This document shows positions 22,611 to 27,005 of a stretch of 34,577 nucleotides of DNA, piece after piece (within the stretch, counting starts at the first letter, position 1; every line of letters starts with the position of its first letter). Source of the stretch: Nitrospirota bacterium (GTDB taxonomy: Bacteria > Nitrospirota > Thermodesulfovibrionia > SZUA-242); the NCBI GenBank assembly GCA_016212095.1, contig JACRHH010000033.1:1-34577 (forward strand). Direction: 5' to 3'. A program made the position numbers and the translations under genes. The notes under the pieces were generated by a model. The model was not told the DNA's origin. It ran no database searches and saw only the letters and a program-made list of their open reading frames with translations.

Positions 22611-23276
22611 ATGTTTAGCATCATTAATGGCATGAAGACGAGGGACGAAAGAGGTTTCACGCTTATCGAGCTTCTGATCGTGGTTGCGATCATCGGCATC
22701 TTGGCCGCCGTTGCGGTTCCGGCGCTGCTTGGCACAAGGGAAAAGGCGAAGGTGAGCGCGCTCAAGGGCAGCGCAGAGACGGCGCAGAAGGAGCTTCAGG
22801 AGTGGATTAATTCTATGGCCAGCCAAGATCCTATAGTTTATATCTCTGCTGCCGCCGGCACAAGAACATGCGTTCCACATGCAAGCAGATTGAGGGTTGA
22901 TACTACTGGCGATGGTGCGGTAACTGGGGCTGATGCAGAAATTTGTCAAACCAGATTCGGTATTGACAACACCGGTACATATACTACTGCTGATGCGGCC
23001 GCTATGACGACGGTTCTCGGCTATTATGTTGCACAGGCGGTCGCAACCGGTAAGAACCTCAATTCATGGAACAGTTCCCTGCCCATGTTTGTGGCGACAA
23101 CAACCAATGCTGCAGCGGCTTGTCGGGTTAATCTTGTAGCGATCAATGGTCGCACTGCAAGGGTTATTGCCGCAACACCAAGCGCGGGCGAGGCGAGCAA
23201 CTGCGCGACAGCCGCCGCCGACAATGCAGGTACAACGGGCGAAATCACGACATCAATTACACTAAGCGCACTCTAG
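22611..23276 (+). CDS. Type IV pilin with EF-hand/dockerin-like loop
   Basis: A 221-residue type IV pilin. The leader ends in RG at residue 15 and is cut before F16 (RG/FTLIELLIVVAII), with Glu at mature position 5; the hydrophobic helix spans about 16-40. Residues 97-108, DTTGDGAVTGAD, fit the calcium loop DxxGDGxVxxxD seen in EF-hand and dockerin repeats. Four cysteines (C87, C112, C171, C198) could form two disulfides. ATG 22611 has AAGGAGG upstream. A strong terminator and a sigma54-like promoter frame it as one transcription unit. It is larger than the 150-160 residues of many major pilins, so major or minor status is uncertain. Confidence 0.92.
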   Translation: MFSIINGMKTRDERGFTLIELLIVVAIIGILAAVAVPALLGTREKAKVSALKGSAETAQKELQEWINSMASQDPIVYISAAAGTRTCVPHASRLRVDTTGDGAVTGADAEICQTRFGIDNTGTYTTADAAAMTTVLGYYVAQAVATGKNLNSWNSSLPMFVATTTNAAAACRVNLVAINGRTARVIAATPSAGEASNCATAAADNAGTTGEITTSITLSAL

Positions 23277-25034: not shown

Positions 25035-25065
25035 GAATCATAGTAAAATCCATGAGGAGAGCCGG

Positions 25066-26292
25066 ATGGAAAGCCAATACATAGGATTCATGCTGGGCGG
25101 ACGCGAGTTTGCCGTCGAAATAATATCGGTGCAGGAAATTATCCGGAACGTGACGCTCACGTCGGTTCCGAAGGCCGAGGAGTATGTCTGCGGTGTCATC
25201 AACCTGCGCGGACGCATACTGCCGGTAGTCGATCTCAAGCGCCGCTTCAACATGCCGGGCGAAGGCGCGACAGACGGCAGCATCATGGTTGTCAACGTAA
25301 ACGGGGCCACCGCCGGAATTCAGGTTGACAGCATCACTGGAGTGATACCGATTCCGTCAGACCGCATCGAGCCGATTACCGAACTTGGCGACAACATGGC
25401 ATCCACCGACATGTGGGGCGTGGCGCGGCTGGACGACAGAATCATTCTGATGCCGGATCTTGCGGCGATTCTGCCTAAGAAGACCCGCAATCAGCATGAA
25501 GCGAGCCTGACCGGCGAGTATCTGCGAAGCGAGATGGATGTTGTCGGCAGGGAGTTGGTTGCAAGGGCCGGCGATGAGCATGGAGCGGAGGACAACCGGA
25601 AGCTTATCGCCGAATTCCAGTCGCTTCTGGCATGTCTTGCCGGAGGCGATCTGCATGGCGCCGAGAAGTCGATCGAGCGGATCACGAGGCTCAGCGACAA
25701 GAAGGTTTACGACGAGGTCGGCACTGTCACGCGTCGTTTGCACGAGTCTTTGAAGGAGTTCCGCAGCGCGCTCGATCCGAGAATAAAGATGATGGCCACT
25801 CAGGACATGCCGGAGGCCGCCGACAGCCTTGAGCATGTCATAGACCTCACTGAGCAGGCCGCTGACAAAACAATGAGCATTGTTGAGGAGGCGATGGCCG
25901 ACAACGAACGCCTTGGCGGATTGGCCGACGACACGTTCGCCGTGATCGATGCGCTTGCGGATTATGGCGTGCCGCCGGACGCGATCGAGAGGCTGAAGTC
26001 GTTCAGGGGCAAACTGAACGCGCATATCGCAAAATCCACGCATGGCTGTAACGAAATACTGCTCTCCCAAGGCTTCCAGGATCTGACCGGCCAGATTATC
26101 AAACGAATAATAAAGCTGGTGCGTGAGCTTGAGGATCAGTTGATACATATAATCAGGAATTTTGGCGTCGAAGTGCAGGAAGAGGAAGCGAAGTCGCCAA
26201 CTGAGGCGGTCATGGATCTCAAGGGGCCGGCAAGCTCAACACGCGTTGATCAGGGCGAAATCGACGACTTGCTCTCATCGTTCGGGTTTTAG
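25066..26292 (+). CDS. CheW-CheZ fusion protein (coupling domain plus CheY-P phosphatase)
   Basis: A 408-residue two-domain chemotaxis protein. Residues 1-138 are a complete CheW, with FMLGGREFAVEIISVQEII, then VCGVINLRGRILPVVDLKRR and a C-terminal strand set. Residues about 150-408 are CheZ-like: long helices, the catalytic QDLTGQ at 338-343 (D339 and Q343 equal to E. coli D143 and Q147), and a C-terminal CheY-binding peptide VDQGEIDDLLSSFGF (394-408). CheW couples CheA to receptors; CheZ dephosphorylates CheY-P. The fusion would hold the phosphatase in the receptor array. ATG 25066 has GAGGAG upstream. No other che or fla genes are in the window. No frameshift is seen, so this is one continuous gene. 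Confidence 0.93.
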   Translation: MESQYIGFMLGGREFAVEIISVQEIIRNVTLTSVPKAEEYVCGVINLRGRILPVVDLKRRFNMPGEGATDGSIMVVNVNGATAGIQVDSITGVIPIPSDRIEPITELGDNMASTDMWGVARLDDRIILMPDLAAILPKKTRNQHEASLTGEYLRSEMDVVGRELVARAGDEHGAEDNRKLIAEFQSLLACLAGGDLHGAEKSIERITRLSDKKVYDEVGTVTRRLHESLKEFRSALDPRIKMMATQDMPEAADSLEHVIDLTEQAADKTMSIVEEAMADNERLGGLADDTFAVIDALADYGVPPDAIERLKSFRGKLNAHIAKSTHGCNEILLSQGFQDLTGQIIKRIIKLVRELEDQLIHIIRNFGVEVQEEEAKSPTEAVMDLKGPASSTRVDQGEIDDLLSSFGF

Positions 26293-26465: not shown

Positions 26466-27005
26466 ATCGTTAAGCAGCCAGTCAAGGGTCCGCCTTCCCG
26501 GACAGTCGATTCCACACGCATTAATCATCAGATCCGCTCGAAAGTAATAAGGGTTGTAGCCGATGAGGGCCAGGTCGGGATCATGGATCTTGACACCGCC
26601 ATCAGGCTTGCCAATGAGCGCGATATGGATCTGGTCGAAATAAGCCCTGACGCCAGCCCGCCCGTATGCAAGATCATGGACTACGGGAAGTTCAAGTTTG
26701 AAAAGGGCAAAAAGCTTCGCGAATCGAAGAAAAAGCAGGCCACCGTCAACATCAAGGAAATCAAGATGCGTCCGATGATTGACGACCACGATTACGAATT
26801 CAAGGTTCGTAACATCAGAAAGTTCATCGCGGACGGCGACAAGGTGAAGATCACGATTCGCTTCCGTGGCCGTGAGATGGCCAAGCCCGATCTCGGAATG
26901 AAGGTTCTGAACAGGCTGTCCGAGGAATTGAACGATGTCGCCAAGATAGAGTCCCAGCCGAAGCTGGAAGGCAAGCAGATGATAATGGTTCTGGCCGCCG
27001 TGTAA
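26466..27005 (+). CDS. infC: Translation initiation factor IF-3 (apparent ATC start)
   Basis: IF-3 keeps subunits apart and checks the start codon-initiator tRNA pairing. From ATC 26466 it has 179 residues, normal for the family. The N-domain begins INHQIRSKVIRVVADEGQVG and holds DLVEISPDASPPVCKIMDYG. The linker is Lys-rich, and the C-domain has IKEIKMRPMIDDHDY and VKITIRFRGREMAKP. Between the in-frame stop at 26352 and the internal ATG 26583 there is no ATG, GTG or TTG. AAGGGGA (26454-26460) is correctly spaced for ATC 26466. Rare start codons (AUU in E. coli, AUC in Myxococcus) allow IF-3 to autoregulate. rpmI and rplT do not follow. Confidence 0.95.
   Translation: MVKQPVKGPPSRTVDSTRINHQIRSKVIRVVADEGQVGIMDLDTAIRLANERDMDLVEISPDASPPVCKIMDYGKFKFEKGKKLRESKKKQATVNIKEIKMRPMIDDHDYEFKVRNIRKFIADGDKVKITIRFRGREMAKPDLGMKVLNRLSEELNDVAKIESQPKLEGKQMIMVLAAV

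Follow-up and report, generated by a model that had tools for sequence, protein, structure and literature searches.

The window, by which we mean the whole 34,577-nucleotide stretch of DNA analysed here, carries a gene that joins a CheW domain and a CheZ domain in one reading frame, and this CheW-CheZ fusion is the standard CheZ of the bacterial class to which its host belongs. Judging from its sequence, the product is probably a CheY-P phosphatase equipped with a module of its own for docking to the array, and is in this way built into it. The frame at positions 25066-26292 starts with ATG and is open over 408 codons, and the 408-amino-acid product contains both full Pfam domains, as the initial annotation had claimed in describing a single uninterrupted CheW and CheZ frame. 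The gene and its parts are:

25054..25059, + strand: ribosome-binding sequence GAGGAG, 6 nt 5' of the ATG, read from the sequence
25066..26292, + strand: cheW-cheZ fusion gene, 408 codons plus stop
25075..25476, + strand: CheW domain, residues 4-137, from Pfam; V22, E24 and R48 correspond to V36, E38 and R62 of E. coli CheW
25477..25575, + strand: linker, residues 138-170, of varying length and sequence among homologues, with low model confidence at about residues 140-152
25576..25701, + strand: N-terminal helical hairpin of the CheZ part, residues 171-212, from gamma-proteobacterial CheZ matches and model helices
25702..26289, + strand: CheZ domain, residues 213-408, from Pfam and PDB sequence match
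26080..26094, + strand: DLTGQ with catalytic D339 and Q343, corresponding to D143 and Q147 of E. coli CheZ
26245..26289, + strand: C-terminal CheY-binding peptide VDQGEIDDLLSSFGF, from alignment to E. coli CheZ

An internal start that would yield a free CheZ was considered at M157 in the linker; this methionine is not conserved in the alignment of 28 fusions described below, and therefore such a start is unsupported as a general device.

Both halves of the protein match their Pfam families above the curated cut-offs, which settles the domain check in favour of CheW for the N-terminal and CheZ for the C-terminal half. PF01584 (CheW) covers residues 4-137 with 122.8 bits (E 1e-35, cut-off 23.5), and PF04344 (CheZ) is matched over profile positions 2-203 of 203 with 147.9 bits (E 4.8e-43, cut-off 30.7). 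The Pfam search of the 408 residues returned no family besides these two, and no Response_reg domain of the CheV type was matched. In a PDB sequence search, the CheW of Thermoanaerobacter (1.3e-22) and E. coli CheZ 1kmi (7.2e-19) were found, the latter for residues 213-408 and aligned through the last residue. E-values this low exclude a chance match. The NCBIfam equivalog for enteric-type CheZ (NF008368) was matched below its cut-off, with 105.9 against 257 bits, and the NCBI enteric CheW equivalog was likewise matched only below its cut-off. In a tree of CheW halves, the CheW half clusters with CheW and away from the P5 domain of CheA (support 100/100).

The AlphaFold model predicts the CheW fold with confidence (best Foldseek match TtCheW, E 1.5e-13), followed after the linker by a helical hairpin, two long antiparallel helices at residues 238-299 and 304-365 and, beyond a disordered stretch, a C-terminal helix at 396-405; a separate model of the CheZ half from 53 sequences kept this order of helices. 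Foldseek against the PDB returned only weak matches for the CheZ part and not 1kmi, whether the whole protein or the CheZ half was used, because long helices do not discriminate. The CheZ fold thus rests on sequence. The hairpin at residues 171-212 is common to gamma-proteobacterial CheZ proteins of about 240 amino acids, whose matches begin at query residues 173-187.

To the question whether the source genome holds a separate CheZ, the answer is that the fusion is the sole one, since no second CheZ was found in the 2.97-Mb genome. The architecture is also no single oddity, for it recurs across the class: CheZ lies above cut-off in 36 of 61 genomes, and every strong CheZ match in those 36 sits in a frame of 395-461 codons. 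All 28 proteins that were translated (27 relatives and that of the window) match both Pfam families, and all 27 relatives start with CheW sequence. Named bearers in the GTDB-based collection belong to the Nitrospirae/Thermodesulfovibrionia and include Thermodesulfovibrio and the magnetotactic Candidatus Magnetomicrobium. The chance that an assembly or annotation artefact has merged two genes is negligible, given the same architecture in the genomes of 36 relatives, some of which (G007, G017, G029, G031 and G038 among them) consist of a single contig; recurrence in independent genomes of this kind refutes an assembly error. In one record titled Deltaproteobacteria (L058), a fused gene is cut by the contig start, and the title may misclassify a Nitrospirota genome.

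The residues expected to carry function were compared in an alignment of the window protein with the 27 extracted relatives, whose identity to it ranges from 29 to 54%. The catalytic pair D339 (GAT, 26080-26082) and Q343 (CAG, 26092-26094), both within FQDLTGQ, is invariant in these 28 members, as are Q396, L402, L403 and F408 of the C-terminal peptide. The initial annotation had named this pair and an E. coli-like CheY-binding C-terminus; the positions proved correct, the DxxxQ motif is invariant, and VDQGEIDDLLSSFGF aligns with 1kmi to its end. In the CheW half, the motif VQEI...NLRG occupies the columns of E. coli CheW V36, E38 and R62, which read V, E and R in all 28 fusions. According to PMC4742279, the salt bridge between Arg62 and Glu38 is conserved universally, both in CheW and in the CheW domain of CheV.

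This conservation bears on the idea that the CheW half is a structural leftover which has lost docking, with a phosphatase as diffuse as stand-alone CheZ. A neighbouring group of genomes (f30) is in line with it, since the CheW half has decayed there while CheZ is intact, and Nitrospiria-like genomes of the phylum sample (f29) have a free CheZ of about 200-250 codons. The N-terminal ~150 residues of the four f30 proteins (L143, L144, L145 and L146) are CheW-like and lack NLRG and VQEI; Pfam finds CheW in two of the four (9e-5 and 3e-4) and not in the other two, and when their profile is compared with that of the fused family, the match extends over both halves with a probability of 99.1 percent. 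In this group, which at a guess is Leptospirillum-like, coupling was possibly lost after the fusion, as far as the sequences tell. We regard the leftover idea as unlikely for the fusion of the class, however, because a useless domain would not keep its coupling residues invariant across 28 members at this degree of identity.

Co-occurrence and gene linkage in relatives show that the fusion serves the flagellar pathway. Flagellated relatives are the ones that carry the fused CheZ: FliM is present in 36 of 36 genomes of the class with fused CheZ and in 2 of 25 without it (Fisher p 8e-15), and the fused gene lies at most 16 kb from fliM in 22 of the 36. In most of the relatives examined cheA adjoins cheWZ. 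The operon of a Thermodesulfovibrio sp. reads cheR-cheY-cheY-cheA-cheWZ-cheB, with cheWZ at the position expected for cheW, and the orders cheA-MCP-cheWZ-cheB and cheY-cheWZ-cheA-cheB occur as well. Of 16 relatives checked, nearly all encode a full-length stand-alone CheW as well, which in some is the immediate neighbour of cheWZ, so that the fusion is an added coupler and not the sole one. A 502-codon frame with three tandem CheW domains was seen in a relative with a single contig of 1.9 Mb (G017:C1:107012-108439).

In the window's genome the fusion gene is orphaned outside the che cluster, between pilin-type genes (pilin-like genes at 22611 and 24164, the type IV pilin just upstream) and infC; contig 29 carries both fliM and a cheA-cheB-MCP cluster. 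This genome encodes five to six CheA, seven stand-alone CheW, one CheV and homologues of CheC/CheX. The orphan position, the pilin-like genes and the several CheA systems are what would be expected if the target of the fusion were the response regulator of a chemosensory system other than the flagellar one, such as a system for type IV pilus motility. We consider this very unlikely, as the fused gene tracks FliM, with 23 of the 25 genomes without the fusion also being without FliM, and is physically close to fliM in the relatives counted above. Three further observations were made in this genome. Read from its ATG, the infC frame (window 26583-27005) leaves positions 1-22 of the IF3_N profile uncovered, and translation therefore probably begins farther upstream, at a rare codon of the sort that infC commonly uses. 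The CheV, a CheW plus receiver protein, is encoded on contig 2 (L138:6111-7046) alongside the CheW-CheZ fusion of the genome. On contig 32 (L135:11867-14722), a receptor of 952 amino acids has an MCP signalling domain joined to a phosphonate-type periplasmic binding domain at the C-terminus, which is an unusual order for a chemoreceptor.

A tethering and a phosphatase role can be soundly inferred: the equivalents of V36, E38 and R62 are retained, as are the catalytic D and Q, and in relatives the gene is linked to cheA and to flagellar genes. According to our proposal, the CheW half would take the place of a CheW in the receptor-kinase lattice, as its invariant coupling residues suggest. The CheZ half, held by a flexible linker of about 35 residues and a helical hairpin, would pair with that of a second molecule, and by analogy with E. 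coli CheZ the two halves would form a four-helix phosphatase. The C-terminal helix might catch CheY-P made by the neighbouring CheA, and D339 and Q343 would then speed its dephosphorylation as it leaves the kinase. The covalent linkage of CheW and CheZ would thereby co-localise phosphatase and kinase without CheA-short as recruiter. Another conceivable function is that of a chiefly CheV-like coupler, whose CheZ half would have little catalytic part and would serve to modulate the array or to sequester CheY-P. CheV itself joins CheW to a CheY-interacting or CheY-like module and is a possible phosphate sink (PMC4742279), and the presence of CheV in the same genome indicates that accessory couplers are in use. 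Such a coupler with little catalysis is nevertheless improbable, because neither the catalytic D and Q nor the motif around them varies in the alignment, and the fusion is the only CheZ of the window's genome.

The array-docked phosphatase that we favour resembles E. coli CheZ (1kmi, PF04344) in the catalytic D and Q, the C-terminal CheY-binding peptide and the whole CheZ profile. While E. coli CheZ is a free protein that is held at the array by CheA-short (PMC7750401), here a CheW domain is fused to it. E. coli CheA-short binds aromatic residues at the tip of the CheZ hairpin (PMC7750401); of these, the fusion lacks W94 and W97 in the 1kmi alignment, and F98 aligns with F. The hairpin is also about 20 residues shorter than in E. 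coli in most fusion-bearing members of the class. Counted between the conserved Thr and the catalytic Asp, it comprises 60 residues in most of them and about 70 in the families f12, f16 and f21; the window's family has 77, and beta/gamma-proteobacterial CheZ has 81. The short hairpin of most members fits independence from CheA-short; other causes for the loss of the tip are possible.

With CheV, the fusion shares the nature of an alternative coupler, a CheW domain with a second signalling module at the C-terminus; this module is a receiver in CheV but, as its sequence indicates, a CheY-P phosphatase domain in the fusion. The closest idea in the open literature is the class F1 CheA of Leptospira, a CheA-CheC/CheX fusion (PMC10782961), in which a CheY-P phosphatase is likewise joined to a core protein of the array. 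There, the phosphatase is of another family and is joined to the kinase rather than to the coupler (PMC10782961). A description of a CheW-CheZ protein was not found in the open full-text literature that was searched. As domain databases will list the combination of CheW and CheZ, the architecture may be known to specialists. CheA3 of Rhodobacter sphaeroides is said to be a bifunctional kinase-phosphatase that terminates the signal in the array; its phosphatase region is reportedly unrelated to CheZ, and it is not known to have a CheW-only anchor.

CheW-CheZ proteins also occur in three of the four genomes of f22, which is another Nitrospirota class, and in one genome of f25. The RIFCSPLOW2_12_42_9 record has the order cheY-cheY-cheWZ-cheA-cheB. 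The CheW motif in these other lineages reads IHEI..HLRD/QLRD in the f22 proteins L140, L141 and L142 and VHEI..DLRG in L070. Among 299 Pseudomonadota genomes, 93 have CheZ above cut-off, and no CheW half was found in the 14 long-frame cases checked from these 93. In one Pseudomonadota genome (L190), a CheW frame of CheV length (317 codons) adjoins cheZ as a separate gene.

In a maximum-likelihood tree of CheZ halves, the free CheZ of beta- and gamma-proteobacteria, that of E. coli included, branches from within the fused clade; its sister group (96/93) consists of the window's gene and the closest relative of that gene, and the magnetotactic families are adjacent (97/91). Repeating the tree with more taxa, and with neither the hairpin columns nor the rows of f22 and f30, did not change this placement. 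Forcing the fused CheZ together costs 4-8 log-likelihood units and is in no case rejected (AU p 0.13, 0.09 and 0.20), and in the CheW-half tree one clade for the fusions of different Nitrospirota is not rejected either (p 0.18). As the AU test does not reject a single fused clade, descent of the E. coli-type CheZ from a fusion is a possibility and not a result. We tentatively speculate that the free beta/gamma CheZ, including that of E. coli, may go back to a CheW-CheZ protein like that of the Thermodesulfovibrionia, which was transferred and shed the CheW half, and that docking to CheA-short in enterics later replaced the tether, a history we hold to be rather doubtful.

In E. coli, CheZ at the array beside CheA shapes the CheY-P gradient and needs a separate recruiter for this position. 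The class studied here seems to hard-wire the placement of CheZ into the coupling protein and to retain this arrangement wherever flagella are retained. The fusion is a natural experiment on the importance of array-bound dephosphorylation, and as a one-gene tether that can be cut at the linker it is also a tool ready for use. If the placement in the tree is true, it would also bear on the origin of E. coli CheZ.
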